Shown: positions 7,239 to 63,931, numbered from the stretch's first letter. The stretch is 64,000 bases of DNA from a virus (IMGVR_UViG_3300020463_000001:62001-126000), one strand, 5' to 3'. Notes: generated from the sequence alone by a model not told the origin. A program made the numbers and translations.

Positions 7239-7247
7239 AAAAAGTTT

Positions 7248-7255
7248 TATAAATA
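7248..7255 (+). promoter_or_regulatory. T4-type late promoter box before gene 8
   Basis: An exact TATAAATA lies in the 50-base gap between genes 7 and 8. By T4 spacing (box at about -13 to -6) transcription would begin near 7261, leaving a leader of about 28 bases with AGAGGAT before the ATG at 7289. Confidence 0.75.
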
Positions 7256-7288
7256 TAGGATTAGACAATTTTTAGAGGATAATGATCA

Positions 7289-15000: not shown

Positions 15001-15459
15001 AATGTGGTAAATTATCCCATATGGACTACGAATACAGATTCACAAGGAAATTCTACTGATACTTCTTCTAATTATACAGATTTTATATCGGAAAGACAAA
15101 ATACTGGAGGAACCGTAGAATCTAAGTATATTACTAGAGAAATACAATTAAATCAACCGGCAACATCATTTAAAATTGTGTTAACAATGCATCGCCCTCA
15201 AGATGCAGATGTCGATTTGTATTATAAGTTAAAAACTAGTGATAGTCAAGACTATCGAAAATTGAATTATGAATACATTTCTAGACCAGAGGGATACTCC
15301 CAATCTTCTATAGGAGTAGATCAGTTTACAGAATTTGATTATGATGTTAAGGGCCTAACTGAATTTTCATCATTTGGAATTAAGATAGTAATGCGAAGTA
15401 AGAACTCTGCATTGCCACCTAGAATAAAAGATTTGAGGATTATCGCTCTTGCGAACTAA
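9001..15459 (+). CDS. Giant DUF4815-type baseplate/fibre protein
   Basis: 2152 residues. The N-terminus (NVTPYYDDYDVNSGYLKILF, then GNSVQARELTQIQSILQQQI and FFKEGAMIIPG) is the conserved start of the DUF4815 family of phage virion proteins found next to baseplate genes in marine T4-like phages. Residues 1593 onward (NPIAQTVMTDKIGGAFLTSV, FFSSKDSVIPVSVELR, GGYPGKTVL, EYAIVVLADSQDYSVHVARLG) form a lectin-like beta-sandwich seen in the same family. The C-terminus (DADVDLYYKLK, YISRPEG, FTEFDYDVKGLTEFSSFGIKIVM) is another conserved beta domain. It occupies the T4 gene 9/10 position directly after gene 8 and probably forms the peripheral baseplate and fibre attachment. The role is inferred from position. 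GAGAAAGAG precedes the ATG. Confidence 0.8.
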   Translation: MASNFNVTPYYDDYDVNSGYLKILFKPGNSVQARELTQIQSILQQQIANVSDHFFKEGAMIIPGQSAIDTDITFLKIGYQDNSVTYNSAADFVGRVVVGSTTGIRALVVHAENATGSTDTDDPDTLYVKFISGADVSDYSSVDFVEGDSISFLPEEVLTTESISSMSDYACEVKPSSDTSIGKGSVAFIESGVYYLQKHLVMVNDQKIVLDKYSNKPSYKIGLQVNEAFVTSNMDNTLLDNAQGTTNFNAPGADRYRISLVFSKRSIDEVDTSNFIELISVRNGVVESHVRTTEYSVLEETLARRTYDESGDYTVRPYQIDVRELLNENGNRGVSTLSDFEFTNEVDAKEMARTRFFDEPDMIDLATGNGQAHTATPNDRTKYPEQNLDSTGTIFYPGKTHDSLVSALRGRLAIGIEPGKSYVRGYELETLVTQFVDYKKSRDHIQKNNEYLTTKLGNFVYLTDVMGLPIPNQTVDLLNINVAGNTHVKIDDDPTFNASDGSTSEGKSTYDKNQISADFSTWSSNNPIGSDVIGTAKIRYVEHYAHDQDSDYLSANFAPGVSNDDSAIYKVYLYDIKMEINPRTNREYLLNDLRSIESQSVAGAFNLFNGNILVEYTLVDQLSTFDNKNIVYSEYQDSLVRGVVYHSSSNKILVKTLGAGNPTSVAVGELNPRLFESNEVIREVEYDTTPENAFSGSVNHDIGLTPNNARVISRNVIFNTSGSSIIDTGSDFVKTIRFVDDDSGNSSVDTSYTVQMKFENVSQAYGGSGSQVELTLGTNSNQIFGSFNEKYYFAYTPTTGSGEPVVHKLTSDNVVLSTDGNNRVTTALVSIEDLSAGNNVVVYAPVIKTNAAEKTKTLVENQVIFPYSARKTDGTFVASETYAANPSSTWYSLDLYGTNNTGSVFNSNTTDSLGNSLALTSIQLEHSDIFELTAVYDTCTVSNVIYQIDSVGTKKFYNEMTAAELKFALDAYLEYEETGVNPTGFADVPVKIVDITDRYTLDNGQRTGMYDIGDIKIQPGQSECAGRVAIVYSYFDHSTGGDYFSADSYTHSTSGIEYSQIPTFKDSRLSDVLDFRPKTVSADLFTEYSLATPLKFGKVSTTSSTPLDNSYVIADYRQYLPRKDKVYLSKEGDFLIKYGAPSISPNYPEDPNDGMVIYKLATDPYSLGTESITAEMLDNRRYTMRDIGKLEKRIKTVEYYTSLSLLEKETKDMDVLDENGLDRFKNGFVVEPFTSHNIGDVFDTQYNCAIDVVNKELRPVFNQKNTPMNFNQSESTLYSIKDGMVMLPYSSAVLAGQGKSSKTVSVNPYAIMGFRGYVKLFPEQDDWKDTNRGNGSQNGGVGGDLNWPPYESDEDDDLSDGSPKGSRPEQNFFIRERNVFFHASGMKPKTRVFAYFDGTPVSQFCITTKTIKVTGVSSADNFIQTYESEIIDNTGDMTLVNNQGHEVRVVGIQYVDASSLNFYVIDNIDTNTFTAGQAVFLVGPNFTNGISPGKFALETGSNSSTLVTDESGNLRGLFAIPNTEEMRFRTGDKIFKLSDQQSSTAFSQTEAEGLYSAKSKLDSSSSTRQERYSSQFVQSNGSVRNQIGEGSNQFNPIAQTVMTDKIGGAFLTSVNIFFSSKDSVIPVSVELRNTVGGYPGKTVLTRKTLYPSNVLTSSTGNLATNFLFDAPVYIEQGVEYAIVVLADSQDYSVHVARLGENSLDGTGTISKQPYSGVFFKAASTSWAPEQMEDMKFTLFRAQFNTSVSSTLYFENKGTDKLGYPSNTVQLGTSSIETFAGSDNVRFHVPNHDLVSSGGSNTHYYVTIAGLNSNARYGGDTNTNAWLGSELNGTHEVVATTLNTFDILMTNVKYVGGNSIAGTSKASTLASSGRFNPSPDSSGKVTAEVNSKFDVLVPIIQTLQLPQTNVTYSMKTTSGQSQDSDMPTGVKDSSWTNFVPNKDISFDTPRAVYSPYNENNFGTGSSNFEKKSLAYKLTLSSTQDNISPVIDTQRFSSTLISNVVNYPIWTTNTDSQGNSTDTSSNYTDFISERQNTGGTVESKYITREIQLNQPATSFKIVLTMHRPQDADVDLYYKLKTSDSQDYRKLNYEYISRPEGYSQSSIGVDQFTEFDYDVKGLTEFSSFGIKIVMRSKNSALPPRIKDLRIIALAN

Positions 15460-48521: not shown

Positions 48522-48550
48522 AAAAGGGGGAGCATTGCTCCCCTTTTTTT
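48522..48550 (+). terminator. Strong intrinsic terminator after the major fibre gene
   Basis: GGGGGAGC (48526-48533) pairs with GCTCCCC (48537-48543, with one further G-T pair), flanked by AAAA and TTTT that extend the stem; seven T residues follow at 48544-48550. It isolates the fibre gene from the genes downstream. Confidence 0.93.
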
Positions 48551-48570: not shown

Positions 48571-48578
48571 TATAAATA
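48571..48578 (+). promoter_or_regulatory. T4-type late promoter box after the terminator
   Basis: An exact TATAAATA 21 bases behind the terminator's T-run restarts transcription for 48607 and 48806. Predicted initiation near 48584 leaves a leader of about 23 bases with AAAGGAAAG. Confidence 0.78.
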
Positions 48579-48606
48579 GAAGGTGAACATTCAAAAGGAA
48601 AGTTAA

Positions 48607-48813
48607 ATGGTTCCAATGAAACTATATAATATCCAGACAATGAAAAGTCCGGAAAGAGTGAAAGAGGCCATCGAAGAGGCGGTTAGTATTCTTAAACAAA
48701 ATTGTATTCTTGCAGATTTTAATGAGGACGATATTAGAGAAACATATTCTGAACATTTACGACTGGTAAAAAACTACTTAACTATATTGGAGTTGATGTT
48801 AGACGATGAGTAA
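48607..48813 (+). CDS. Small helical protein, unknown
   Basis: 68 residues, with AAAGGAAAG upstream of the ATG. The sequence (ERVKEAIEEAVSILKQNCIL, DDIRETYSEHLRLVKNYLTI) predicts two or three amphipathic helices, acidic at the end (LMLDDE). I do not recognise it. It is followed with an 8-base overlap by the next small gene, so the two are probably co-translated. Both differ from the beta-rich appendage proteins around them and may be small assembly factors, but nothing in the sequence proves that. Confidence 0.68.
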   Translation: MVPMKLYNIQTMKSPERVKEAIEEAVSILKQNCILADFNEDDIRETYSEHLRLVKNYLTILELMLDDE

Positions 48814-49027
48814 AAGAACTGTACATGGCCCACAACTTCTTACATTTATAAGTAAGATAGAAAAGAACCTAGAAGACTTTAATTTTTATGATGCAAATTC
48901 TTCCAAGGAAGATAAAATGGCATATATCCGATATCAGAGAGAACTTTTTGATATCGCAGAAAGAGTTTTGGCTGGTAGTTTATATTTTGTTGGTACATCT
49001 CAAGAGGTAAGGGAAGTAAAAAGTTAG
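48806..49027 (+). CDS. Small helical protein, unknown
   Basis: 73 residues, overlapping the preceding stop by 8 bases (GATGAGTAA). The sequence (GPQLLTFISKIEKNLEDFNF, SSKEDKMAYIRYQRELFDIA) is helical and charged. Not recognised. Its partner gene and the shared promoter suggest the two act together. Confidence 0.66.
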   Translation: MSKRTVHGPQLLTFISKIEKNLEDFNFYDANSSKEDKMAYIRYQRELFDIAERVLAGSLYFVGTSQEVREVKS

Positions 49028-49054
49028 AATTATTTCTAAATTAATTCTATTTTT
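49025..49054 (+). terminator. Possible weak AT-rich terminator
   Basis: TAGAATTA (49025-49032) pairs with TAATTCTA (49042-49049) and is followed by five T residues. The stem has a single G-C pair, so any termination would be leaky. It sits just at the end of the small gene at 48806. Confidence 0.35.
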
Positions 49055-49077
49055 GGGTTTTTTGAGACAACTAAAAT

Positions 49078-49085
49078 AATAAATA
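49078..49085 (+). promoter_or_regulatory. Late promoter box variant before the group B array
   Basis: AATAAATA (one change) lies 61 bases before the first group B gene at 49147 and is flanked by two copies of CTAAATTAATTCTA (49036-49049 and 49110-49123). The ATG has a strong AAAGGAG. Confidence 0.42.
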
Positions 49086-49146
49086 TACACATACAATTAC
49101 TTGATGAGACTAAATTAATTCTAATTTTCGCAAAGGAGATTCATAA

Positions 49147-50022
49147 ATGGCGGATTCAAATCTAAGCACTTCTATTGCTGCAGTACTTTCTAGAGGTCAA
49201 TCACTTATTTCAAGTGCAACCGCATCAGAACTTGCTGACATCACCGAAGCACTTAAAAAAATCAAAAAGACTGATGATGCAACAGCAGAAACTGCTGTCA
49301 ACGCAAGAGTAAGTTCGTTGTATTCTACTGCAACGATTGACGAAAAACTTAAATTATCCAGAGCTGTCGCAAATATGTTGGAAACAAAATTTGTAGATGG
49401 TATTCAATTTCCAGATGATACTGGATTATCCGATAGAATTCTAAAGACAACTGGTATGTCTACTCAATGGGCGAAAGTATCTTTATCTGATATGAATGCT
49501 CTATCTGGAACTCCTACCGCTGGAGATATTCTAGTTTATGATGCTAGTTCAACTGCATTTGTTTCTACTCCTGCCGATGCTGCAAAAATTCGATACTACG
49601 CAGACGCCGCAAGTCTCCCAACAGATGGTGAGAAGGGCGAACTAGTTCTTTGTGGTACAGACTTTAAATTCTATTGTGTTAAGAGTGTAACTCATAGTGT
49701 AACTGCAGTAACTGGTGCATATGTTATCAATTCAGAGAATAATCCTGCGTTGACTTTCTATAGAGGAAGCACATACACATTCGCACTTGATGGAACTTCA
49801 ACATCAACTCATCCATTCTATTTTGCGACAAGCAATGCAGGAAGTTATACTGGAGAGTATACGACTGGAGTGACTAATTCAAGAGCAACATCAGGAAGTG
49901 TAACGATCACAGTTCCTTCTGACGCTCCGGATACTTTATACTATCAGTGTGGAAATCACTCATCAATGGTGGGAACTATTACCGTTGCGGGGCCTTGGGT
50001 CGAAGTAACGGCTGCAAACTAA
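49147..50022 (+). CDS. Group B protein 1: anchor plus cupredoxin-like domain
   Basis: 291 residues. Residues 1-85 are the group B anchor (SNLSTSIAAVLSRGQSLISS, ASELADITEALKKIKKTDDA, EKLKLSRAVANMLE). Residues about 145-180 are the small beta domain shared with siblings (GEKGELVLCGTDFKFYCVKS). Residues 185-285 form a cupredoxin-like beta-sandwich: FYRGSTYTFALDG, STSTHPFYFATS, VTITVPSDAPDTLYYQCGNH and SSMVGTITV. H222, C268, H271 and M274 occupy the places of the type-1 copper ligands of plastocyanin and azurin (His, Cys, His, Met), although C-to-H-to-M spacing is tighter than in plastocyanin. Such domains are common in marine phage virion proteins as I recall them; whether they bind copper is not known to me. 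Strong Shine-Dalgarno AAAGGAG. Confidence 0.8.
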   Translation: MADSNLSTSIAAVLSRGQSLISSATASELADITEALKKIKKTDDATAETAVNARVSSLYSTATIDEKLKLSRAVANMLETKFVDGIQFPDDTGLSDRILKTTGMSTQWAKVSLSDMNALSGTPTAGDILVYDASSTAFVSTPADAAKIRYYADAASLPTDGEKGELVLCGTDFKFYCVKSVTHSVTAVTGAYVINSENNPALTFYRGSTYTFALDGTSTSTHPFYFATSNAGSYTGEYTTGVTNSRATSGSVTITVPSDAPDTLYYQCGNHSSMVGTITVAGPWVEVTAAN

Positions 50023-50046
50023 TAAGAAATATAACGGAGAAAAGGA

Positions 50047-50637
50047 ATGTCATATTTAGATAGCGCATTAGACGCAGCAAGACTTACAATGGTTGCTGAC
50101 ATCGAAGCACAAGTCTCTACCGCAAACAAAGATGACCTCTTGAAATATGCAAGAATGGTCAAGAATCTAAGAGAAACTGATAATGTAACAATCGAAACAT
50201 TAATCAACGCAAGATTAGAATCACTTCTTTCTACGGAAGATGATGTCGATACTCTTTTAGATCTCTCTGACAGTTTGTCAAAGGTACTGGACTTGGTTCA
50301 ACCTAACACAGAAACAGGAAGAGAACTTCCTACACAATCCGGTAACGGTGGTAAGTATCTTACAACAGACGGAACAAACGTCTCTTGGGGAACACCAGCA
50401 TTATCAGATGTTTCTGATTTAACCAGTGTTTCTGACGGCGAAGTTCCAGTTTATACTGGTTCTGGATTTACCGGAGAAAGCTTAGTAAACAAAACTGTCG
50501 CTGCAGAATACAACTCAGTCGCTGGTTTGCCCGCAAGTGCAAGCAATGGTGACTTTGCATATGTTCTAGAGAACAGTAACATTTATTATTGGAATGGAAC
50601 TGCATGGACTGCATTTGGTTCATTTGTAGCTTCCTAA
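50047..50637 (+). CDS. Group B protein 2: anchor without a head domain
   Basis: 196 residues. Anchor at the start (LDSALDAARLTMVADIEAQV, KDDLLKYARMVKNLRETDNV, TLLDLSDSLSKVLDLVQ), then the linker PTQSGNGGKYLTTDGTNVSW with DVSDLTSVSDGEVPVYTGSG, and the small beta domain NGDFAYVLENSNIYYWNGTA. The protein ends (WTAFGSFVAS) exactly where the 1637-residue sibling at 51261 continues into its head (YWNGTEWKVAAVVATGG). GGAG lies about 8 bases before the ATG. It is complete, without frameshift; it could be an adaptor, a short fibre, or a headless competitor in assembly. Confidence 0.76.
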   Translation: MSYLDSALDAARLTMVADIEAQVSTANKDDLLKYARMVKNLRETDNVTIETLINARLESLLSTEDDVDTLLDLSDSLSKVLDLVQPNTETGRELPTQSGNGGKYLTTDGTNVSWGTPALSDVSDLTSVSDGEVPVYTGSGFTGESLVNKTVAAEYNSVAGLPASASNGDFAYVLENSNIYYWNGTAWTAFGSFVAS

Positions 50638-50665
50638 TAAGACAAAATAACGAGGGATAAAAGAC

Positions 50666-51205
50666 ATGGCAGATTCAAATTTACAAAACGCAATCGGCGC
50701 GATGAAAACAAAAATTCGTGCAGAAGTCGGTGGTGCGGATGTAGATAATGTATTAAAGTTGTCTAGGGCTGCAAAGAATACAGGTTTGGATACAGACGGA
50801 GATGTTGAGGGAGATTTCAACATTAGAGCGTTGTCTCTATCCACAACTGCTACTGCAGGCGAAGTAGACAAGTTAAGTAGAGGAATTAAGAAACTTATCA
50901 CAAGAGATGTAGATACAGGTGGAGTCCAGATCAGTAGTTCTGATGACGTTCCAGCTGGTTCTTCAAACCAATACTTTTCTCAGGGTGGAGCAAGAGCATT
51001 AGTCCAGACTAGTGGAGACGTAAGTTATAATTCAGTAACTGGTGAATTTTCTTTCACTGCCCCAGCGGGTGGTTTGACAGTTTACGCAAATTCATCAGAA
51101 TTACCTTTGAGTGGAAATAACGCAGGCGATCAGGCACTAGTTACTTCTACAAACAGACTGTACATCTTCACAGGATCAGGATGGTATAGCGTACCAGTAT
51201 CTTAA
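50666..51205 (+). CDS. Group B protein 3: anchor without a head domain
   Basis: 179 residues. Anchor (SNLQNAIGAMKTKIRAEVGG, VDNVLKLSRAAKNTGLDTDG, AGEVDKLSRGIKKL), then a fibre-type segment GSSNQYFSQGGARALVQTSG with DVSYNSVTGEFSFTAP, and the small beta domain ELPLSGNNAGDQALVTSTNR with LYIFTGSGWYSVPVS. It stops where the siblings at 56179 and 58195 go on into an Ig-like domain and a propeller. GAGGGAT precedes the start. Complete and in frame; same open question as the previous gene. Confidence 0.76.
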   Translation: MADSNLQNAIGAMKTKIRAEVGGADVDNVLKLSRAAKNTGLDTDGDVEGDFNIRALSLSTTATAGEVDKLSRGIKKLITRDVDTGGVQISSSDDVPAGSSNQYFSQGGARALVQTSGDVSYNSVTGEFSFTAPAGGLTVYANSSELPLSGNNAGDQALVTSTNRLYIFTGSGWYSVPVS

Positions 51206-51260
51206 TATTTGGTTGGTTCCTTATACTGTCAATAACAAAGTAATTTAAGGGAGTTGCCGA

Positions 51261-54200
51261 ATGGCTGACGCACAACTATCAACGTCGATAACATCAATTA
51301 GCGAAAGAGCATCAGAGGTCGCCGTATCGGCCTCTGCGGATGAGTTACAGAAAATATCTAGAGTTGCTCCAAGTCTTGAACAATCAGAAAACGCAGCATT
51401 AGAAGTTGCAATCAACACCAGAGCAGCAGCAATTGCTGGAACTGCGTCTGCGTCTGACTTGAAGAAGATTGGAAAAGCAATCGGAAATATGTTGGAACCG
51501 CAAACTGCTTCTGTATCAGGAGAGTTTATTGGTTCTCAAACCAATCATTCTGGAAAATTCTTTTCTACAAATGGAACTGCGAAGAACTGGGGTGGAGTCA
51601 CTATGGGTGGTCTTCAACAGGTTCAGTTGTCTACAATAGAGAACGATCAGACACTTGTGTATAATAGTGTCAGCGGTAAATTTGAAAACTCTTCAAGAGC
51701 ATTTGATATTCCACAATACTCACTAACACAAAATCTACCAGCGTCTGCAAATGCTGGTGAAGTTGTTTTTGATGTTCAGTCATCTCAACTCAAATACTGG
51801 AACGGAACGGAATGGAAGGTTGCGGCGGTTGTTGCGACAGGTGGAACTGCTGGTGGAGTAACTTGGACAAGAGGGTCTAGTTTCAATATAGCACACCCAG
51901 AATCAAATTTGACTCCATCCTACGGTGGATGGGAGACTGGGCCAGCGACACAGGGCCCTCCTCGTATTGATGCATATGGAAATTATCTTGCGATAGCAGA
52001 TAGTTTTAATCAGTCAGACAATAGTGGCAATGCAAATGCCAGAAGAGGTAGAGTTTATATTTACGATATGTCAAACTCTTCTACTGTGCCAATAAGAACT
52101 TATAAATCAGAATCTATCAATTCCTATGATAGTCAAGAGTTCGGTAAAAGAATAAAGTTCTGGAAAAATCCATCCAATGATAAACTTTATGTTCTTATTT
52201 CGCTGCACGGCGCAACTCAAACGTATGCATTCAATGTAACCGATGGTTCTTTATCACCGGAATTTCAATTCGGAGGATATTCTAGTGGATTTAGTTCTCA
52301 GAATAAGGGAGTTATTACTCCAGACGGAAATTATTATATATTGCCTGGTGGGGCCCCTAGAGGAGTTTATGTATACGATTTGATTAATACTCAAACGACA
52401 CACAAATGGTTTGTTGGAAAGAATACCAGTAATGGCCAGGAGTTGCGTGATTATAACGGCATTTTTGTAGATGCATCTACAGGAAAACTCATTATTACGG
52501 ATCCATATGCTAATAGTAATACGGGCCAGGTCGAGATATATGACATATCTGATTTATCAACTCAGGCCCCGAATTTACTAGCGTCATATTATTTTGATAG
52601 TCCGTATGGCAGCGCATATTATGGTTATACTGCTGCATATGATCCAAGTTCACAATATTTATATCTTGGACATGATAGTAGTGGTGGTGGACAAGTTGAT
52701 AATCCTCCTGTATATGTTTATGATGTTTCTGCCCTTACATCAACGGATGGAGGGAAACACGCTTTACCTACTCCAGTAATTTCAATACCAAATCCCAGAG
52801 TGGATGAAAGTGGCAACGCATATCCAAAAAATTCTCATGTAGGCTGGACAAGAGGCGGAATTCACATCTTAAGTGATAGATTATATATCGCAGATAGTAG
52901 TGGAACTTCCAACGGCGCAGTAGGGAATGGTGTCATTCATGTATTCAATAAGTCTGACGGATCTCATTTAGAAACAATAGCAAATCCACATCCAGAACTG
53001 AGAGCAAGATTCGCAAGACAAGGTTTTGTTATTGGAGAAGATCCAGATTCAGACACTGCATATCTTATGGGAACAGCAAATGTTAATTCCGGAGCTGGCG
53101 AAGGACAATACTGGAATAATGAAACAGATTATATGGCAATGGGATATGTATTCACTAAAGATTCTGCATCCAGTGGTTCTGGAGAAAGTTCTAGTTCGCC
53201 CACATCGTCAATACAGTTCGATGGTTCGGATGATTACTTAACCGTAGATTTCCAATCAACTGTCATTTCTTCCAATGAAGAGTTTACTGTAGAATTTTGG
53301 ATTTCCCCAAATGATCTTGCTAACAATTATGGCAACGGATTATTGAACTTTACAAATAATTTGGGAACATATGAAAAGTTATTGTATATTTCTAGCACAG
53401 GAAATGTCTCTTTGTATAATAACGGAGATATTACATCCAACTCCGGAGGTGGTCTTACTGTAGATGGGTGGCACCATATTGCATTGACTAGACAATCTGA
53501 TAATTACATTAGAATTTATATTGATGGCCAATTAATAAATACATCGTCTAGTCAGTGGGATGTGGAATTACCAAGATATCTTGAAATAGGAAGGGTTAGT
53601 TCCACTACTGGATATTTTGATGGAGAGCTTGCAGATTTGCGTATCGTTAAAGGCACATCGGTCTATAACGCAAACTTCACTCCGACAACATCGCCACTAG
53701 GAGATGTCGCAGGAACATCACTACTAATATCTAGCAGCAACACTACAGATATTGTTGATGCGTCTTCATCTAATGAAACTATAACTGCATCCGGCAGTCC
53801 TACTGTTGTTACAGACACTCCATATACAGCATCTGGTGGTGGTTCTGAACAATCCTCTGAAAGTTCTGGAGAATCCACTCCGACAATTACATATAAGATG
53901 GTTGTGGGTGCGGATAGAGACGATGATAATGGTGGATTACAAACTGGATCTGTTTATGTATACGATCTAGATGGTTCTAATGAAGTCAAAATAACCGCAA
54001 GTGATGCTCAACAGGGGGATCAATTCGGAAGAGATGTGGCAACCGGAAACGATAAAATTGTAGTCGGTGCATATAAAGAAGATACTAGAGGTGACGCAGC
54101 AGGAAAGGCATACATTTACGATCTAGATGGAACTAATGAAGTCATATTGTGTCCTACCGATCTTTCCGCTGGTGACAATTTTGGTGTCGCGGTTGCGGCT

Positions 54201-56174
54201 GGAAATAATAAAGTTGCTGTCGGTGCAAACGCACAATCAGACTATGATGGGGCCGTGTATGTCTATGATCTAGACGGAACCAACGAAGTTAAAATAACTC
54301 CTAGTGCCGGAGCAGGCAATAGTTTCGGAAGATCTGTAGTTATTGGACATAATAAATTGGCAGTTGGTGCTGAAGGTAACGGCGGTGCTGGAGCCGTATG
54401 TGTCTACGATTTAGACGGAACCAACGAGGTTATAATAACTGGCAGTGATTCAACTCCCAATGCAAGATTTGGTTCATATGAACAATCTCTTGCTATTGGA
54501 GAAAATAAAATTGTAGTTGGCGCATCACAACAAACAGGGCCAGGTGGAGTAGATAGCGGACAAAATAATTATGGAGCCGTATATGTCTATGATTTAGATG
54601 GAACCAACGAAGTTAAAATAACTGCTAGTGATGCTGGAACTGAACATGATTATTTTGGATGGTCGGTTGCGGTAGGAGAAAGCAAAATCGCAGTTGGTGC
54701 TAGATTCCAAGATAGTGCAGTGAATAATGGAGGAAAGGTCTATCTTTACGACTTAGATGGAAGTAATGAAATTCAAATTGTTGCAAGCGATCCTGATGTC
54801 GATGATAACTTTGGTTTTGATGTTGCAATTGCAAACGGAAAAGTTATTGTAGGATCTAATGATGATAAGACTGGAGCAAATAATGGCGCAGTTTACGTCT
54901 ATGATCTAGACGGATCTAATGAGGTTAAAGTTCTTGCAAGTGATGGAGCAATTAGTGATCTCTTCGGCCAATCAATTGCAGTTCCTACAGTCGCAGGAGT
55001 TACTTCTTCTGGAAGTTCTTCTAGCTCATCCACACCAGTAGATTGGAGTCCGCTCACATTGATACAGACTGCTGGTAAGAGTGTACACACTATTACTGGT
55101 GGAACTACAGGAGAGTCAGATCTTGCAGTAGATATGACAGAAACATACACAGTTCTTGGAGTAGACAAAGCATATAGTGGTTACGGATCAGCATATATTA
55201 TAGATACTGTATCTGGAAATGTTACTGCGACCATAAACAATCCCAATCCGTTAACATCAGGAAGTTTCGCAAGAAGAAACTCTGTCGGCACAGACGGTGT
55301 TCATGTTGTTCTTGGTAATAGGGATCAAGATGAAGTATATGTCTACAATATGTCAGGACAAATTCAAAGAACTATCAGTGGCCCTGACTCCGGCGCAATG
55401 TTCGGTCACTCTGTTAAGATTGATGGAGACTATATCGTAGTCGGTGGATATAATCAAGATAAGGCATATATCTGTTCTACATCAACAGGTGCGGTTCTAT
55501 ATACATTGACAAATCCAAATGTATACGGATCTACTCCGGATCAGTTCGGTCAGGTAGTTGATATTTCCGGAAACTTCATGGTAGTTTCTACTGTAGAAGA
55601 AGATGCTGCAGATGGAAGTAACTCAGGTGTCGCATATGTGTATACTGTAGATGCTGGTAGTTTACTTCATACATTTGTCAATCCAAACGCACATGGAACA
55701 AGTGCCTTGGATAACTTTGGAATTGATTGTGCTCTTGATGGAAACTACCTCGTAGTGGGTGCTTTTGGGGAATCTGACGCTGCTGTAGGGTCTGGTTCTG
55801 GTAAGGCGTACTTCTACAATGTCGCAACAGGAACACTCTTACACACCATTGACAACCCAAATCCGGACAGCGGAACTGAAGTAGATTACATGGGTTGGTC
55901 AGTTGATGTTGAAGGTCAAACCGCAATAGTCAGTGCATGGTATGAGACTGGAGCTGCAGGAGCAGACTCTGGTAAGTGTTACCTCTATGATGTAGTATCA
56001 GGAAATCTATTACATACCATTGAAGATCCAAATGTATATTCTGGTGGGGGAACTGATGATAGATTTGGTTCAGAAGTTGCAATATCAGGAACTTTCATAG
56101 CAATCTCCGCAAAGGGCGAAGATCATGCAAGTCAAAATAATGTTGGCGCAATCTATGTATTCAAAGGAGAATAA
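51261..56174 (+). CDS. Group B protein 4: anchor, propellers and LamG domain
   Basis: 1637 residues. Anchor at 1-85 (SISERASEVAVSASADELQK, ASASDLKKIGKAIGNMLE) and the shared beta domain to about 195. Residues about 215-640 look like a first beta-propeller (GNYLAIADSF, GRVYIYDMS, GKLIITDPYANSNTGQVEIY). Residues about 650-830 are a LamG fold (SIQFDGSDDYLTVDFQS, FTVEFWISPND, GWHHIALTRQSDNYIRIYID, GELADLRIVKGTSVYN). Residues 876-1245 contain seven VYVYDLDGTNEVKITASD-type blades with FGxxVAxGxxKIxVGA between them. Residues 1255-1637 are a third propeller with seven HTI...NPN-type strands. FG-GAP-like propellers and LamG commonly bind ligands or glycans, so this is a large adhesin. GGGAG precedes the ATG. 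Confidence 0.85.
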   Translation: MADAQLSTSITSISERASEVAVSASADELQKISRVAPSLEQSENAALEVAINTRAAAIAGTASASDLKKIGKAIGNMLEPQTASVSGEFIGSQTNHSGKFFSTNGTAKNWGGVTMGGLQQVQLSTIENDQTLVYNSVSGKFENSSRAFDIPQYSLTQNLPASANAGEVVFDVQSSQLKYWNGTEWKVAAVVATGGTAGGVTWTRGSSFNIAHPESNLTPSYGGWETGPATQGPPRIDAYGNYLAIADSFNQSDNSGNANARRGRVYIYDMSNSSTVPIRTYKSESINSYDSQEFGKRIKFWKNPSNDKLYVLISLHGATQTYAFNVTDGSLSPEFQFGGYSSGFSSQNKGVITPDGNYYILPGGAPRGVYVYDLINTQTTHKWFVGKNTSNGQELRDYNGIFVDASTGKLIITDPYANSNTGQVEIYDISDLSTQAPNLLASYYFDSPYGSAYYGYTAAYDPSSQYLYLGHDSSGGGQVDNPPVYVYDVSALTSTDGGKHALPTPVISIPNPRVDESGNAYPKNSHVGWTRGGIHILSDRLYIADSSGTSNGAVGNGVIHVFNKSDGSHLETIANPHPELRARFARQGFVIGEDPDSDTAYLMGTANVNSGAGEGQYWNNETDYMAMGYVFTKDSASSGSGESSSSPTSSIQFDGSDDYLTVDFQSTVISSNEEFTVEFWISPNDLANNYGNGLLNFTNNLGTYEKLLYISSTGNVSLYNNGDITSNSGGGLTVDGWHHIALTRQSDNYIRIYIDGQLINTSSSQWDVELPRYLEIGRVSSTTGYFDGELADLRIVKGTSVYNANFTPTTSPLGDVAGTSLLISSSNTTDIVDASSSNETITASGSPTVVTDTPYTASGGGSEQSSESSGESTPTITYKMVVGADRDDDNGGLQTGSVYVYDLDGSNEVKITASDAQQGDQFGRDVATGNDKIVVGAYKEDTRGDAAGKAYIYDLDGTNEVILCPTDLSAGDNFGVAVAAGNNKVAVGANAQSDYDGAVYVYDLDGTNEVKITPSAGAGNSFGRSVVIGHNKLAVGAEGNGGAGAVCVYDLDGTNEVIITGSDSTPNARFGSYEQSLAIGENKIVVGASQQTGPGGVDSGQNNYGAVYVYDLDGTNEVKITASDAGTEHDYFGWSVAVGESKIAVGARFQDSAVNNGGKVYLYDLDGSNEIQIVASDPDVDDNFGFDVAIANGKVIVGSNDDKTGANNGAVYVYDLDGSNEVKVLASDGAISDLFGQSIAVPTVAGVTSSGSSSSSSTPVDWSPLTLIQTAGKSVHTITGGTTGESDLAVDMTETYTVLGVDKAYSGYGSAYIIDTVSGNVTATINNPNPLTSGSFARRNSVGTDGVHVVLGNRDQDEVYVYNMSGQIQRTISGPDSGAMFGHSVKIDGDYIVVGGYNQDKAYICSTSTGAVLYTLTNPNVYGSTPDQFGQVVDISGNFMVVSTVEEDAADGSNSGVAYVYTVDAGSLLHTFVNPNAHGTSALDNFGIDCALDGNYLVVGAFGESDAAVGSGSGKAYFYNVATGTLLHTIDNPNPDSGTEVDYMGWSVDVEGQTAIVSAWYETGAAGADSGKCYLYDVVSGNLLHTIEDPNVYSGGGTDDRFGSEVAISGTFIAISAKGEDHASQNNVGAIYVFKGE

Positions 56175-56178
56175 TTAA

Positions 56179-58176
56179 ATGGCTAATACGTTTACCGCAA
56201 GAGATACACTCAAGACAAAACTACTCGCAGCATTAAGTAGTGCTACTAATGCAGATCAAATTGTCAAGTTATCTAGAACAATAGAAAAAGCAAACCTAGA
56301 CGATGATGCAGATCTAGAAACCGCATTGGACACAAAAGTATCTGCAATGGCAACTACTGCCTCTACAGGAGATATTGAGAAACTTGCGTTTGGTGTCAAG
56401 AAATTAAGAACTTCTGAGACTGCAACAGATCCAGTTTCTAGTATGATCCCAGAAGGTTCTAGTAATCTTTATGTAACTGATTCTAGAGTTAGAAGTTCTT
56501 TTAGTGCAACTGGAGATTTATCTTATGATTCCGGAACTGGTGTCTTATCTTACACTGCATTACCAGATGCGTTAACAGTTTATGCGACAGTTGCAGATTT
56601 ACCCTTACCCGAAAATACTCCTTCTGGTGCAAAGGGAATAGTTGAAGAGAACAAGAAACTTTATATTAACACAGGATCTGCATGGCTTAATGTAGGTCTT
56701 GTAGATCAGAAACCAAACTTCACAACAACACCAGACGGTTCATATACATTGAGCCCAGGCGCAGATACAGTTATTACCTTGTCTGCTACTGATCCTCAAG
56801 GAGATCCTATCACATTTTCTCATGTGGTATCTGTAGGGTCTTTGGGAGGAACTACAGTGTCACAATCCGGTAATGTCTTCACAATCACAGGAAGTTCTGA
56901 TACTAACGATACTGCCCCCTTCTCAATAACATTTAGAGCAAGTGACGGAACAAATATTACAGATACAACTTCAGAATTCACAGTGCAATTTACAGTAGTG
57001 CCTAACTGGGGTGCGTTAGATGGAAATTACGAAACTCTTGTATCAGGACAGGCGAACGGCGCAGAGCTCGGAGCCGCGTTAAGACTTGCAGGAGATTATC
57101 TAATTGCGGTACAGCAAAGTGGTACACTTTATTGGGGATTTGATATGAGTTCTCAAACTGGACAAGTAAGTTCTTCAAGTGCTCTTTGGCAATCGAACTT
57201 GACTGGGTATATGCAGCATTATTCTGATTCACTTGCGGGAAATGAACACTTCTTTGTTACATCATTGGCAAATACCGCCCATGGCCACAGTGCAAGCGGT
57301 ATGGCTGTTGTAAGACCATCAGATGGTCATGTATATGGATACTTATTTGATGCTGCAGTAGGTACTAGTTTGGGGTATGGTGTTGCACTTTACGGCGATG
57401 GCCCTTGGTATGTCTTTAGTGCTCATCAACATAATAACCATCATTTTTTATTTAAAATTAATTCATTAGAACCATTCAATTTCGAACTGGTATCGCATGG
57501 CAAAAATGTTGGAGAAGCATTTCTGGATAGTTCGGTAGTTAACGAAGGGGGGCTTCATGGATCTGAGGTTTCTCTTGGAGATAACTTAGTAGTAATGTCA
57601 GCATTTAACGCACCTTGGAATGGTGTTAATGGGGCGAGAAATAATGGTTCAGTTCACCTTTACGATTATGCAGGGTCATTGCAATCATCTTTGTATTCTC
57701 CTTTAGGAGAACCGGATGCAAACCGAGAAAATGGATTCGGTGGGGGAAATAATAGATCCGGAGGAACTCATGTTGATGGCAATACTCTGTATGTGGGAGA
57801 ACAAGGAAATACATACGGATCCAATAATACGGATGGAGCAATCCATATATACGATATAAGTGATGTAACCTCGCCAACTCTTACCCAGACCATCAGACCA
57901 TCAGATCTTGGTCTGAGTAATGCGGTTCATTTTGGAAGGTCAATCCAAGTTTCCCAGACATCAATGTTGATATCTTATAAAAATTCTAGCAACAATGGGG
58001 AAGCATATGCAATTGTTGATACTTCTGATATGTCACTGAAAAAGAATTTCTCATCCGTTATGGGATTCGCAGGGTGGCCAAGAAACTCAATTTCAGTCAA
58101 CTCTTCTGGTATCGGAACTTTTGCTTATTGGGTCTACGATAGTAAGGGAAAGATCGCTGTCCACAGAACAACTTAA
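56179..58176 (+). CDS. Group B protein 5: anchor, Ig-like domain and propeller
   Basis: 665 residues, 4 bases after the previous stop with AAAGGAG inside the preceding gene. Anchor 1-85 (ARDTLKTKLLAALSSATNAD, QIVKLSRTIEKANLDDDADL, GDIEKLAFGVKKLRTSE), fibre segment SSNLYVTDSRVRSSFSATGD with LSYDSGTGVLSYTA, small beta domain (GAKGIVEENKKLYINTGSAW). Residues about 180-275 are a cadherin-like Ig domain (VITLSATDPQGDPITFSH, VFTITGSSDTNDTAPFSITF, RASDGTN). Residues 275-665 have propeller-type blades (GDYLIAVQQSG, GDNLVVMSAFNAPWNGVNGA, GSVHLYDYAG, GNTLYVGEQGNTYGSNNTDG, AIHIYDISD). Likely an adhesin. Confidence 0.82.
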   Translation: MANTFTARDTLKTKLLAALSSATNADQIVKLSRTIEKANLDDDADLETALDTKVSAMATTASTGDIEKLAFGVKKLRTSETATDPVSSMIPEGSSNLYVTDSRVRSSFSATGDLSYDSGTGVLSYTALPDALTVYATVADLPLPENTPSGAKGIVEENKKLYINTGSAWLNVGLVDQKPNFTTTPDGSYTLSPGADTVITLSATDPQGDPITFSHVVSVGSLGGTTVSQSGNVFTITGSSDTNDTAPFSITFRASDGTNITDTTSEFTVQFTVVPNWGALDGNYETLVSGQANGAELGAALRLAGDYLIAVQQSGTLYWGFDMSSQTGQVSSSSALWQSNLTGYMQHYSDSLAGNEHFFVTSLANTAHGHSASGMAVVRPSDGHVYGYLFDAAVGTSLGYGVALYGDGPWYVFSAHQHNNHHFLFKINSLEPFNFELVSHGKNVGEAFLDSSVVNEGGLHGSEVSLGDNLVVMSAFNAPWNGVNGARNNGSVHLYDYAGSLQSSLYSPLGEPDANRENGFGGGNNRSGGTHVDGNTLYVGEQGNTYGSNNTDGAIHIYDISDVTSPTLTQTIRPSDLGLSNAVHFGRSIQVSQTSMLISYKNSSNNGEAYAIVDTSDMSLKKNFSSVMGFAGWPRNSISVNSSGIGTFAYWVYDSKGKIAVHRTT

Positions 58177-58194
58177 TTTAAATAGGAAACAATA

Positions 58195-60486
58195 ATGCCT
58201 AATACTAATTTAGAAAACTCAAAGACCAACATGAAGACTCGTATTAGAAATCGAGTCCAAGCTGGTCAAACACCAAGAGATCTAGGTAGACTTGCGAAGT
58301 CTGCTAGATTTGTGGGACTCACAGATGACGCAGAAGTAGAATCTGATATTGATACTCAGATGGCTGCTGCGATTCCTGCAGCATCCATAGATGATCTCGT
58401 AGAAATGTCTGAAGGTCTTGCAGAGTTAAGAACTGGTTCTGCAGATATGGGTAGAGTCAGTAATACAGATAATTTAACAGAGGGCGGAAATAAGTTTCTT
58501 AAAGCATCAAACGTACAACCAGCAATAAGTGTCTCTGGAGACTTGTCTTATGACAGTGGTGTGGTTTCATACACTGCTCCGACTTCTGCTGCACTTCAAG
58601 TTGTCGCGACAGTTGGAGATCTTCCTACTGGTGCAAGTCCCGGCGATCAAGCAGTTGTTCAATCCAATAATAAATTGTATATTAGAACTGCAGATGGTTG
58701 GTATGCAACTGCGTTGATTAATACTGCACCAACAGTATCAGGAAACGATGCGACATATACGCTTGCAACAGACGGAAGCCCTACAGTTATTACATTAACC
58801 GCTGTTGATCCAGAGAATGATCCAGTATCATTCTCACATTCAGTGACTTCTGGAGATCTCAATGGAACTACAGTAGATCAGACAGATAATGTCTTTACTA
58901 TCACTCCACACGCATCACAGGCAGCAACATTCGAATTAACATTCTCTGCAGATGACTCAGTAAATGTCACAACTGCAGTTTCAAGTTTTAGTTTAGTGTT
59001 CGGATTAGATTGGAGCAGTCCTACCCAAATAGGATCTAATAGAGACTATGAATTGAATTATGTGTATGAACAAAATGGATTTTATACATACAACGCTTAT
59101 ATTGATCAGTGGCCTGGAGGAGGATCCCAGAGCGCCTTTGGATCTTATTCCAAGAATGGAAAGAGTTGGATGGTTTTTGGAGACTCTCAGGTTAGAGATG
59201 CTAGTACTGACACCAGAGGTTTTATTGCTGGACTAGCACTTCATGATCCATACGGATTTGAAGGAAACAACGGAGGAAACTTTGCAGCGGCAAGGTGGTC
59301 TTTCAAAAATCCAAATATATACACCACTCCACATAATTATGATAATTTCGGGCATAAAGTTGCTGTTTCTCCAAGTGGAACTTATGTTGCGGTTTCCGCT
59401 CAAGAAGAAAACGCACCTCAACTATATGGAAGAAGTTCGGGCGGCCGAGCATATCTTTATAATATAGATACAAATACATATACAACCATAGATGATCCAA
59501 ATATAAGTCATGTCGGAATGTTTGGCCAGGGAATTGCCGTAAGCGACACTCATACTGCTGTCGGGAAAACCGACTACAGCGAACAGGGTGGCGGCATGGC
59601 CGGAAGAGTACACATATTTGACAACGCCACTGGTAATTTTTTAGCATATGTCACTCATGATAGTACTACTTATCAAAGATCAGATTATCCTCAACAATCT
59701 TGGCAATTGCCAGAAGATGGTGATTTATTCGGCGCAAACGTAGTAATGAATAATGAATATTTGTGCGTTGCTGCTGAAAACGAACAACCCGTAAGTGGAC
59801 ATAACGGTGTTGGTGCAGTTTATGTGTATGATATGGCAGATCCTTCCAATCCAAGTTTTTTATATAAGTTACAACCTACCGGATATAGTGGCGCAAATGC
59901 TCCGACATCGATGGTTGGAGTTAATGCACCATATCAAATGAATCATAAGGTTTATTTCGGAGGAAGTAGATCCAACTCTAGCATGGTAATATCTGGAAAT
60001 AAACTTGCTGTGGGTGCTCCTGGCCATTTCACTAATACCCCTCGGCCGGTTGCTGGAAACTATAGTGGTAGTTCTGTATTCGGATGGGATGGAACTGGAT
60101 ATAATCAGGGCCCCGAAGAATCAAGGGGAGGAAAGATATTTATATATGATTTAACTTCTGGAAATCTCATTACAGAAATTGAACATCCCCAGAACTATGG
60201 ATATTCAAATATTTCCGGAAGTCTTGGCGGTGCATACAGTTTAGGTCATGCATTTGCATTCGACGGGGATGTCGTGGTCGCTGGAAGAGGTCGTACTAGA
60301 GATGTAGATGTCTATAGTGCATCTGATGGAAGTATTATAACAACTTTGGTTGATGCAGCTCCATTTACAGGAAGTCTTGATAGGCCTCCTGTAGTATTTC
60401 TACAAGATAACTATATTGTTGCATTAGGTAAAACTGGAGGCAGCAACTCTGGCGGAATGCCAATAGGTAACGTCTGGAAAGCATAA
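58195..60486 (+). CDS. Group B protein 6: anchor, Ig-like domain and propeller
   Basis: 763 residues, closest to the preceding gene in architecture. Anchor (NSKTNMKTRIRNRVQAGQTP, RDLGRLAKSARFVGLTDDAE, SIDDLVEMSEGLAELRTGSA), then NVQPAISVSGDLSYDSGVVS and the small beta domain (SPGDQAVVQSNNKLYIRTAD). Residues about 175-270: Ig-like (VITLTAVDPENDPVSFSH, VFTITPHASQAATFELTFSA). Residues 275-763: propeller blades (GTYVAVSAQEEN, GRAYLYNID, GRVHIFDNATGNF, EYLCVAAENEQ, GAVYVYDMAD, NKLAVGAPGHF, GKIFIYDLTSGNLITEIEHP). AGGAAA precedes the ATG. Last gene of the array. Confidence 0.82.
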   Translation: MPNTNLENSKTNMKTRIRNRVQAGQTPRDLGRLAKSARFVGLTDDAEVESDIDTQMAAAIPAASIDDLVEMSEGLAELRTGSADMGRVSNTDNLTEGGNKFLKASNVQPAISVSGDLSYDSGVVSYTAPTSAALQVVATVGDLPTGASPGDQAVVQSNNKLYIRTADGWYATALINTAPTVSGNDATYTLATDGSPTVITLTAVDPENDPVSFSHSVTSGDLNGTTVDQTDNVFTITPHASQAATFELTFSADDSVNVTTAVSSFSLVFGLDWSSPTQIGSNRDYELNYVYEQNGFYTYNAYIDQWPGGGSQSAFGSYSKNGKSWMVFGDSQVRDASTDTRGFIAGLALHDPYGFEGNNGGNFAAARWSFKNPNIYTTPHNYDNFGHKVAVSPSGTYVAVSAQEENAPQLYGRSSGGRAYLYNIDTNTYTTIDDPNISHVGMFGQGIAVSDTHTAVGKTDYSEQGGGMAGRVHIFDNATGNFLAYVTHDSTTYQRSDYPQQSWQLPEDGDLFGANVVMNNEYLCVAAENEQPVSGHNGVGAVYVYDMADPSNPSFLYKLQPTGYSGANAPTSMVGVNAPYQMNHKVYFGGSRSNSSMVISGNKLAVGAPGHFTNTPRPVAGNYSGSSVFGWDGTGYNQGPEESRGGKIFIYDLTSGNLITEIEHPQNYGYSNISGSLGGAYSLGHAFAFDGDVVVAGRGRTRDVDVYSASDGSIITTLVDAAPFTGSLDRPPVVFLQDNYIVALGKTGGSNSGGMPIGNVWKA

Positions 60487-60498
60487 TTTAAAATACAA

Positions 60499-60506
60499 TA
60501 TAAATA
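60499..60506 (+). promoter_or_regulatory. T4-type late promoter box next to a start codon
   Basis: An exact TATAAATA ends 6 bases before the ATG at 60513. With T4 spacing transcription would begin at about 60512, giving a message with almost no leader. Layout and sequence (TATAAATATTC...ATGAAAGA) closely match the site at 15460. Confidence 0.72.
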
Positions 60507-61567: not shown

Positions 61568-62317
61568 ATGTCTGCAATAACCAGCAGAAGCGAATTCAAA
61601 GAATACTGTCTCAGAAAATTAGGCAAACCTGTCATCCAGATAAACATAGCCGACGAACAAGTCGATGATCGTGTTGATGATGCATTTGAACATTATCGCG
61701 ACTATCACTATGATGCGGTAGAAAAGGTTTATCTGAAACATCAAGTTACTCAAGATAATATCACAAACGGATACATCGAACTTAACGATGCGATTGTTGG
61801 TGTCAAAAGAGTTCTTCCTTTATTTGATAAGACAGACGGATATTCTAAAAGTTTCTTTGATGTTCGTTATCAAATGCACCTCAACGAAATTTATGATCTT
61901 AAAAGTATGGAGTTGTTGACTTATGAACTCACACAGTCACATCTTCAGTTAGTTAATGATATGATCACAGGAAGAGTGCCGATTAGATTTAATCGTCACC
62001 AAAATCGTTTATTCTTAGATATAGACTGGGAGGAGAGTCTGGATGTTGATGAATATCTAATTGTAGAAGTGTATCGTGTTTTGGATCCGGATACTTATAC
62101 GGATGTTTGGAATGACAGATGGTTGAAGAGATACGCAACTGCACTTATAAAGAAGCAATGGGGAGAGAATCTATCGAAGTACGAAGGAATTCAAATGCCT
62201 GGCGGCATGACATTTAGTGGGACAAGAATCTTGGACGAAGCAAACCAAGAGATAACTCAACTTGAGGAAGAGATGTCTACTAACTACGAATTACCTGTAG
62301 ATTTCTTGGTAGGTTAA
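61568..62317 (+). CDS. 13: Neck protein gp13-like
   Basis: 249 residues (T4 gp13 is 309). The sequence has the gp13 features: SRSEFKEYCLRKLGKPVIQI at the start, then DEQVDDRVDDAFEHYRDYHY, and the conserved GVKRVLPLF, WEESLDVDEYLIVEVYRVLD and ATALIKKQWGENLSKYEGIQ with MPGGMTFSG. gp13 forms a ring on the filled capsid below the portal and, with gp14, makes the neck to which the tail joins. It heads the 13-14-15-16 operon behind a late promoter and the hairpin at 61540-61564. Gene 14 starts one base after its stop. Confidence 0.95.
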   Translation: MSAITSRSEFKEYCLRKLGKPVIQINIADEQVDDRVDDAFEHYRDYHYDAVEKVYLKHQVTQDNITNGYIELNDAIVGVKRVLPLFDKTDGYSKSFFDVRYQMHLNEIYDLKSMELLTYELTQSHLQLVNDMITGRVPIRFNRHQNRLFLDIDWEESLDVDEYLIVEVYRVLDPDTYTDVWNDRWLKRYATALIKKQWGENLSKYEGIQMPGGMTFSGTRILDEANQEITQLEEEMSTNYELPVDFLVG

Positions 62318-62318
62318 C

Positions 62319-63179
62319 ATGGCTGTCAATCAATACTTTAATCAGACAAGTCTAGCATCTGAACAAAATCTTTTGGAGGATTTGGTCGTTGAGTCTATTC
62401 AGATTCATGGTCAGAACTTCTATTATATAGAAAGAACTGAAGTTAACTCTGATACTGTATTCAACGAAGCAACTCTAAGTGAATTCAATACCGCATATCT
62501 GGTAGAGATGCATATAGAAGATACAGATGGATTTGCTGGTGAAGGAGACTTTCTTTCTAAGTTTGGTCTAGAAGTACGAGACCAATTAAATGTTATTGTA
62601 TCAAAGAAAAGATTCACAGAAGCAACCAGTAAAACAATTCCTTTATCTGGAGACTTAATATATTTCCCTTTAGTTGATAGGTGTTTCGAAATTCAATTTG
62701 TCGAAGATGAAGTGCCATTCTATCAACTTGGCAAAATGTATGTATTCAGATTGTCAACAGAGCTCTTCGAATACTCACACGAATCATTTGATACTGGTGT
62801 TGCAGAGATAGACGATATCGGAACTGAGAATACAACATTCAGTGTAGACCTAACTTTTGGAACTGGAACTGGAGAATTTTCTGTAGGTGAGACTATCTAT
62901 CAGGGAGCAGATCTTGCAAACGCAACTGCAACAGGAGAAGTAATCTCTTGGAACTCTGGAACTAATGTTCTGAGAGTTGGTTCACTTACCGGAACATTCG
63001 CACAGAATACAAATACAATCGGTGCAACCTCGTCAGCAGATTATCTCTTAGGTGCGACACAACAAATAACTTATATAGAAACAACAGAAAATGTAGTAGA
63101 TAATAGTTCAGATTTCTCTGGAACTGCTGACACAGTTATCGATTTTTCAGTCACCAATCCATTCAGTGAGAGTTACTAA
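62319..63179 (+). CDS. 14: Neck protein gp14-like
   Basis: 286 residues (T4 gp14 is 256). The N-terminus NQYFNQTSLASEQNLLEDLV with ESIQIHGQNFYYIERTEVN, and the DTVFNEATLSEFNTAY, GDFLSKFGLEVRDQLNVIVS and DLIYFPLVDRCFEIQFVEDE segments, are conserved gp14 features. Its beta-rich second half includes FSVGETIYQGADLANATATG with VISWNSGTNVLRV, an insertion-like stretch common in marine relatives. gp14 joins gp13 in the neck. The stop overlaps the gene 15 start by one base (TAATG). Confidence 0.95.
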   Translation: MAVNQYFNQTSLASEQNLLEDLVVESIQIHGQNFYYIERTEVNSDTVFNEATLSEFNTAYLVEMHIEDTDGFAGEGDFLSKFGLEVRDQLNVIVSKKRFTEATSKTIPLSGDLIYFPLVDRCFEIQFVEDEVPFYQLGKMYVFRLSTELFEYSHESFDTGVAEIDDIGTENTTFSVDLTFGTGTGEFSVGETIYQGADLANATATGEVISWNSGTNVLRVGSLTGTFAQNTNTIGATSSADYLLGATQQITYIETTENVVDNSSDFSGTADTVIDFSVTNPFSESY

Positions 63180-63931
63180 TGTTAGGCATAACCCCACAAT
63201 ATAGAGGAACTCTTCGAAACTATATTATAGGATTCGGTTCTCTCTTTGATGACATAGATATCCAGAGAAAAGATTCTTCTGGGAATGTTACGAGTATTAT
63301 AAGAGTACCACTTTCGTATGGGCCTGCCCAAAAGTATATCTCTAGAATTAACTCAGAGAGTAGTGATGTCGCAGTAGTTCTTCCCAGAATGAGTTTTGAG
63401 ATATCTGGCATCAGTTATGACTCAGGAAGAAAACTTAATAAGATGTCTGGATATACTGGTGCTCATACTCCAGAGGGAAGTAAAACATTTGTTTACAATC
63501 CTGTTCCTTGGGATATATCTTTGACGCTTTCTTTATTAGTAAAGAATGCAGAGGATGGTACACAGATATTAGAACAGATACTCCCTTTCTTTACTCCTTC
63601 CTTTATAGTACCTATAAAAGAAGTAGAAGAATTAGATATAGTAAGAGATACTCCAGTCATATTGGATTCAGTAGATGTTCAAGATACATATGAAGGAGAC
63701 TACTTAACAAGAAGAGTTTTAGAGTGGACTCTAGGTTTTACACTCAAAGGATATCTATATGGTTCTCAGGATAATAAGAAGACAATCAAAAAATCAACTG
63801 CGAAGATTGTCAATATAGATACAAACAGAGATTTTTCTCAACAAGAATATGAAATAGATCCTACTACTGCCACAGAACTTGATGATTATGGATTTGGCAC
63901 AAGTATAACAGAGTTTAATAATGAAGACTAA
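63179..63931 (+). CDS. 15: Tail sheath stabiliser / tail terminator gp15-like
   Basis: 250 residues (T4 gp15 is 272). It begins LGITPQYRGTLRNYIIGFGS with LFDDIDIQR and continues IIRVPLSYGPAQKYISR, VVLPRMSFEISGISYDSGRK, VPWDISLTLSLLVKNAEDGT and QILEQILPFFTPSF, all typical of gp15; the late YLTRRVLEWTLGFTLKGYLY segment is also conserved. A gp15 hexamer caps the tail tube and sheath and joins the tail to the neck. The start overlaps gene 14 by one base, and the next gene starts 11 bases before its stop. Confidence 0.95.
   Translation: MLGITPQYRGTLRNYIIGFGSLFDDIDIQRKDSSGNVTSIIRVPLSYGPAQKYISRINSESSDVAVVLPRMSFEISGISYDSGRKLNKMSGYTGAHTPEGSKTFVYNPVPWDISLTLSLLVKNAEDGTQILEQILPFFTPSFIVPIKEVEELDIVRDTPVILDSVDVQDTYEGDYLTRRVLEWTLGFTLKGYLYGSQDNKKTIKKSTAKIVNIDTNRDFSQQEYEIDPTTATELDDYGFGTSITEFNNED

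Follow-up and report, generated by a model that had tools for sequence, protein, structure and literature searches.

Exchanged heads on constant docks in a three-cluster, probably receptor-binding gene family of a T4-like marine virus

The array and its genomic setting

The window analyzed here, a stretch of 64,000 nucleotides, corresponds to positions 62001-126000 of a 200,733-bp record of a T4-like marine virus. Within it, six intact, ATG-started genes, each with a Shine-Dalgarno-like site, form a plus-strand array at 49147-60486. The first-pass annotation had described these genes as sharing one N-terminal anchor, and approximately the first 170-195 residues of all six did align; this common region is referred to below as the dock, and what follows it as the head. 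Gene g1 (49147-50022) combines a dock with a cupredoxin head (approximately residues 178-283), g2 (50047-50637) and g3 (50666-51205) are headless docks of lineage I and of lineage II (that of the A and B types), and g4 (51261-56174), g5 (56179-58176) and g6 (58195-60486) are genes of the C, B and A type, respectively. Ahead of g1, a plus-strand intrinsic-terminator-like hairpin with a 12-pair stem and a T-run (48522-48548) ends the preceding unit, and an exact match to the T4-type late-promoter-like motif TATAAATA (48571-48578, plus strand) opens that of the array, the two together setting the array apart from the gene before it. The next plus-strand copy of the motif is at 60499, and eight of the nine plus-strand copies in the window sit in gaps directly upstream of structural genes.

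The left side of the window carries T4-type gp5-like, gp25, gp6 and other baseplate wedge genes, as well as a VrlC homologue (9001-15459) with stretches 32-39% identical to VrlC of HTVC008M. Genes for a gp13-like head-tail adaptor, gp14 and gp15 follow at 61568-63931, so that the array is placed between the VrlC homologue and these genes, with one gene of unknown function separating it from the gp13-like gene. Comparison of gp6 with cultured phages gave at most 36% identity (Melnitz, HTVC008M), which indicates that the lineage is uncultured. Searches with g2 and with the g4 head by tblastn returned no match among 50,697 phage records. One contig was binned in a Saprospirales MAG, a hint to the host only, as binning can be wrong.

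A dock family in three clusters

A profile built from the six N-termini retrieved eight further ORFs from the same genome (E 1e-45 to 1e-59). The relatedness of the array members was thereby borne out, but the family proposed initially as one of six has 14 members in three clusters. When the helical and beta halves were profiled separately, each profile recovered the identical 14 ORFs, the next matches of these half-dock profiles having E values of 0.042 and 0.0035, and the 14-ORF dock family is far beyond chance. Cluster 1 is the array itself (window 49147-60486, six plus-strand members); cluster 2 (record 136267-143750) has three members that immediately follow the major capsid region, and cluster 3 (record 5905-1 and 200733-193919) has five members on the minus strand and spans the contig end.

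Related viral contigs were found in IMG/VR with single docks as queries (L010, L011, L015 and others). The dock tree has two deep lineages, one made up of the C-type docks with g2 and g1 and the other of the A- and B-type docks with g3. Across contigs, docks from one genomic slot mostly fall together, which is the pattern that vertical inheritance predicts, and, as judged from the tree, slot-by-slot vertical inheritance of the docks is shown. No homologue of the dock was detectable in the structural regions of HTVC008M or Melnitz, and a PDB sequence search returned no match. The named families among the weak matches to the dock were mostly tail families; Pfam matches below the cut-off (BfiI DNA-binding, Toxin_R_bind_N, DUF2793) were disregarded as weak.

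The dock is built of two parts, a four-helix domain and, after it, a small beta domain. An AlphaFold2 model of g2 was of moderate quality (pLDDT 71.8, pTM 0.41), with helices at residues 3-23, 28-40, 47-63 and 67-80 mostly at pLDDT 75-91 and less confidence in the beta part. For the helices, only generic bundles were matched, and Foldseek searches of the anchor against PDB and BFVD gave no match with E below 0.001; because the model is moderate, we do not call the helical dock fold new. Residues 150-196 aligned with the trimerization domains of collagen XV/XVIII over nearly the whole domain length (3n3f, Z 5.7, 46 of 53 residues; 3hon, Z 5.4, 47 of 55; rmsd 2.0-2.5), and these middling Z scores are support for trimerization rather than proof. 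The small beta domain thus probably trimerizes the chain, and a trimerizer placed directly before the junction would allow unrelated heads to fold on one dock.

Fixed members and exchanged heads

The first-pass annotation had pictured the heads as interchangeable cassettes on a common dock. This held for g4-g6, where the docks are kept and most of the A- and B-type heads are unrelated between genomes, but not for g1-g3, which are unchanged in architecture and almost unchanged in length across all of the nine contigs that carry them and are therefore outside head exchange. The identity of g1-g3 was 92-98% in six relatives, 83-95% in L015 and 69-76% in L016, the most distant, with dN/dS of 0.05-0.20 overall. 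By gene, g1 was 69-97% identical across the nine contigs, g2 was 92-98% identical in seven relatives and 76% in the most distant (dN/dS 0.05-0.19), and g3 was 95-98% identical in seven relatives and 75% in the most distant (dN/dS 0.07-0.14).

That g2 and g3 are headless yet intact genes, as proposed initially, was confirmed by their Shine-Dalgarno-like sites, kept length and purifying selection. Conserved length and purifying selection indicate genes maintained as headless and not decaying, and together with the ribosome-binding sites they rule out degenerate remnants. There is one such fixed headless dock for each dock lineage. In g1, the cupredoxin-like head was supported by Foldseek and VIA matches to rusticyanin (Z 10.7, 95 residues, rmsd 2.0), and the type-1 copper ligands H222, C268, H271 and M274 were invariant in 57 of 57 sequences. 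As far as sequence and fold comparison reach, the g1 head is a cupredoxin fold with the type-1 ligand set His, Cys, His, Met and hence a putative copper site. The domain matches PHROG 677 (baseplate wedge tail fibre connector, E 1e-20), and domains of the g1 type were found in 396 confirmed viral-contig stretches as well as in a Melnitz gene that is annotated as a tail fibre and lies near a neck gene. Most likely, g1-g3 are constant structural parts, serving the variable fibres, for example, as adaptors or spacers.

The remaining three genes differ in how firmly their head domains can be assigned. Propellers plus LamG in g4 were corroborated by an FG-GAP Pfam match (E 4e-91) and by homology to the Pfam LamG domain. 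For g5 and g6, described beforehand as an Ig-like domain plus a propeller, the Ig/cadherin-like match was weak; the propeller was supported in g6 (FG-GAP E 5e-6) and weak in g5, where the match (E 0.039) fell below the cut-off. The heads scanned contained FG-GAP propellers, LamG, glycine-rich and Ig-like domains and no pectate-lyase-type Pfam match.

Head exchange was assessed in about 13 related contigs. This comparison with related genomes, set beforehand as the refutation test, found that the heads of g4-g6 are not fixed. DNA homology to relatives, at 86-95% identity, covers 48600-51835, approximately 55096-56984, 58164-59000 and approximately 60472 onward, and is missing between these blocks except for patches inside g4 and at the end of g6 in L010. 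The first block ends with the conserved C-type dock of g4 (51261-51835). The variable part that follows (51836-55094; propellers, FG-GAP repeats and a LamG segment at approximately 53211-53831) has mosaic or absent homology in relatives, and the gene closes with a conserved C-terminal propeller (55095-56174; residues 1279-1637, the last 359 or so), which is 85-87% identical in L011 and L015 and retained in L010 and L016 too. The C-type genes have mosaic heads with conserved stretches. The dock and Ig-like domain of g5 (56179-56984) and those of g6 (58195-59000) are both 88-93% identical in relatives, and DNA homology stops at 56984-57003 and 58973-59024, respectively. Beyond these points, the exchangeable g5 head (56985-58176) matched none of the ortholog heads by blastp at E<1e-5, and the exchangeable propeller head of g6 (59001-60486) was homologous, at 45%, only in R17748 and unrelated in R20420a and R2786. 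A single breakpoint at the same place in all members, as originally proposed, was not found: C-type homology is lost at residues ~192-223, after the beta domain, and A- and B-type homology at residues ~268-281, after the Ig domain.

In the A and B slots of relatives, docks were 80-97% identical. Dock identity was at least 75% in 28 non-redundant same-slot A/B pairs; in 23 of these, the heads gave no blastp match at E<1e-5, and some same-slot heads were still recognizably homologous at 24-56% identity. Within the genome, A-type docks and their Ig domains were 73-83% identical up to residue ~273-281, after which several pairs diverged fully. Three head families cross dock types, one occurring with C, B and A docks and two with A and B docks. 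The C-type head of the virus's own cluster 3 and a cluster-1 B-type head of L010 were 86% identical in amino acids and 90.2% identical over 1,072 nt, on docks only 26% identical; in cluster 3, one A-type and one B-type gene (3A1 and 3B) carry a common head, for which there was no PDB sequence match worth naming. At the level of sequence comparison, these data show that genomes with neighboring DNA 86-95% identical differ by replacement or mosaicism in their A-, B- and C-type heads, and that certain head families pass from one dock type or cluster to another. By trading gene ends, the virus seems to vary what it grips.

Proposed function, alternatives and known systems

Altogether, we consider it probable, at roughly 0.78, that the array belongs, as one of its three clusters, to a 14-member, late-expressed, trimeric tail-fibre-type receptor-binding family whose heads are exchanged in a T4-like marine myovirus. 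As is characteristic of receptor-binding proteins, a conserved N-terminal attachment region is combined with a variable C-terminal region, and the array is encoded in the late tail/host-recognition region. From this position, the late-promoter motif, the domain types and the Melnitz tail-fibre homologue, we infer an adhesin function and a location on the tail. On this reading, trimers of the proteins would share one attachment site on the virion, most probably on its baseplate or tail, and ligands on the host surface would be bound by the heads, among them beta-propellers, LamG and glycine-rich domains. Each head may be regarded as flanked by the conserved dock of its own gene and that of the next gene, and with docks on both sides, what lies between can be swapped by ordinary phage recombination. 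Heads would then move by homologous recombination; a RecA/UvsX-like protein is encoded in the virus record. Since paralogous docks within the genome share exact stretches of only 14-53 nt, same-slot exchange between genomes looks easier than shuffling between slots, but the heads found across dock types indicate that shuffling happens too. A diversity-generating retroelement and a Mu gin-type inversion are unsupported as mechanisms, as the virus's own record, which is possibly incomplete, contained neither an RVT_1 match nor a Resolvase (serine invertase) match.

Very fast evolution of the heads in place, without exchange, could account for those same-slot heads that are homologous at 24-56% identity, but the docks of the same genes have remained 80-97% identical with dN/dS of 0.09-0.19. 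This explanation is contradicted by the sharp breaks in DNA identity and by the related heads found on other docks (identity up to 86% in amino acids and 90% in nucleotides), and we give it hardly any credence. Scarcely more probable is that the array encodes secreted or intracellular proteins outside the virion, such as exclusion factors: such head domains are also known in bacterial cell-surface proteins, but the late-promoter motif, the placement in the structural region from VrlC to the neck genes and the tail-protein-like beta motif all speak against it. The docks might instead bind the head shell or neck, with the heads tethering virions to cells, to particles or to polymers resembling mucus. 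Decoration proteins such as Hoc typically have Ig-like and lectin-like heads, the gene before the array has head decoration among its best PHROG matches, and the position of cluster 2 directly after the major capsid gene makes a capsid location possible. Against capsid fibres stand the tail-fibre/host-recognition position of cluster 1, the PHROG 677 match of a g1 head domain that recurs in the Melnitz tail fibre, and the predominance of tail families among the named weak dock matches, and we regard them as unlikely.

The first-pass annotation had also raised the possibility of caps or competitors; in such a role, the headless docks would fill docking sites and adjust how many headed fibres there are. 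Their intact, conserved genes with ribosome-binding sites, the strong purifying selection and the presence of one for each lineage would fit such a role, but conservation is equally compatible with a structural adaptor or spacer, and we hold the suggestion as a tentative one, with the odds well against it. More speculative again is an extension in which all 14 docks compete or heteromerize on the same few sites, giving each virion a random fibre mix and each burst a heterogeneous tropism, with headless docks setting the number of headed fibres and tandem-dock exchange refreshing the repertoire; we think this rather improbable.

The preferred reading, a tail-fibre-type receptor-binding family, has parallels in known systems. 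The Klebsiella jumbo phage phiKp24 has fourteen putative branched tail fibres and a broad receptor repertoire (PMC9700779), and likewise combines many fibre proteins per phage with N-terminal attachment modules and variable C-terminal specificity domains (PMC9700779). It differs in its beta-helical depolymerase heads and in N-termini of differing length, groups G1-G4 (PMC9700779), whereas the virus studied here has one dock family, propeller, LamG and cupredoxin heads, fixed headless members and three dispersed clusters. In RaK2/phiK64-1 and CBA120, conserved N-terminal domains join several receptor-binding proteins into a branched complex, and domains are swapped between phages (PMC10253068). 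Their N-terminal domains (D1, D2, AD) resemble T4 baseplate-type domains (PMC10253068), whereas our dock has only generic structural matches and no PDB sequence match, Foldseek giving only short matches with E>1 to the CBA120 tailspikes. The parallel beta-helix depolymerase heads of CBA120 and RaK2 have no counterpart among the scanned heads of this virus. T4 fibritin is likewise a virion fibre with a conserved N-terminal part whose C-terminal module is swapped in T4-like phages but it is a single gene, and its swapping is reported to have been nearly all in the distant past (PMC3797505); here, many genes are involved, with swaps between genomes whose neighboring DNA is 86-95% identical. The tail fibres of eCIS, with the anchor domains eBAP1-5, also have a conserved N-terminal baseplate anchor and highly exchangeable receptor-binding domains (PMC12923769), but these are injection systems, not phages, and the likeness to our dock is one of description.

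The closest positional parallel is the hypervariable host-recognition cluster of pelagimyophages and cyanomyophages, which, in the sections of that study used here, runs from VrlC to gp14 and has ConA-like and other binding domains in its tail genes (PMC7029224). The array occupies the same position, as do the Melnitz tail fibres. Those sections describe variability at the level of the island; a dock family of 14 members, conserved slot by slot and exchanging its heads alone, is not described in them (PMC7029224).

Modular receptor-binding proteins with many paralogues (phiKp24, RaK2, CBA120) and a hypervariable host-recognition cluster are thus already known; what is new is the dock family, the slot-wise split into a constant dock and a replaced head, the spread over three clusters and the fixed headless docks of each lineage. 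The headless docks that never vary raise a well-defined, testable question on assembly, and a search with the dock profile can directly bring up the lineage's adhesin repertoire. Among closely related marine phages from the wild, whole fibre heads are seen to be replaced while docks stay constant, at DNA resolution, and host-range change in uncultured T4-like marine phages thereby becomes directly measurable from metagenomes.

A curli-type operon beside array cluster 3

Adjoining cluster 3, the five minus-strand array genes that lie across the contig end, is a complete-looking curli-type operon (own genome 6096-11857, minus strand; numbering as in L040). CsgF (PF10614) and CsgG (PF03783, E 6e-53) are encoded within this interval, together with a curlin-repeat protein (7919-8734) whose Pfam match is just above cut-off and a protein combining CHASE2 and nucleotide-cyclase domains (6096-7931). 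Visual inspection added another secreted protein (9719-10501), its repeats curlin-like, and an FecR-like ORF. In the pelagimyophages, CsgF and CsgG were reported as the sole curli genes identified and CsgA/CsgB were called missing (PMC7029224).

Probable closure of the record

One cluster-3 gene of the C-type dock spans the contig end (own genome 1-991 and 197817-200733) through near-identical tandem repeats. This makes it probable that the record is circular or closes inside the repeat, and leaves the repeat number uncertain.

Late-promoter-like motifs and a possible host

The TATAAATA motif was found 12 times in the window (6.2 expected), including in gaps upstream of structural genes at 7248, 15460, 21593, 39330, 45851, 48571, 60499 and 61536; these positions give a candidate T4-type late-promoter map for this uncultured phage. 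Between the late-promoter motif at 48571 and g1, the first array gene in the window, lie two short ORFs of roughly 68 and 73 aa (window 48608-49027). They are part of a DNA block conserved in relatives, and their products may serve the array as accessory or assembly proteins.

The relative contig L015/L217 (PAPS01000031.1, 37.8 kb) was binned in a Saprospirales (Bacteroidota) MAG; such binning, which can be wrong, hints weakly at a Saprospirales host.
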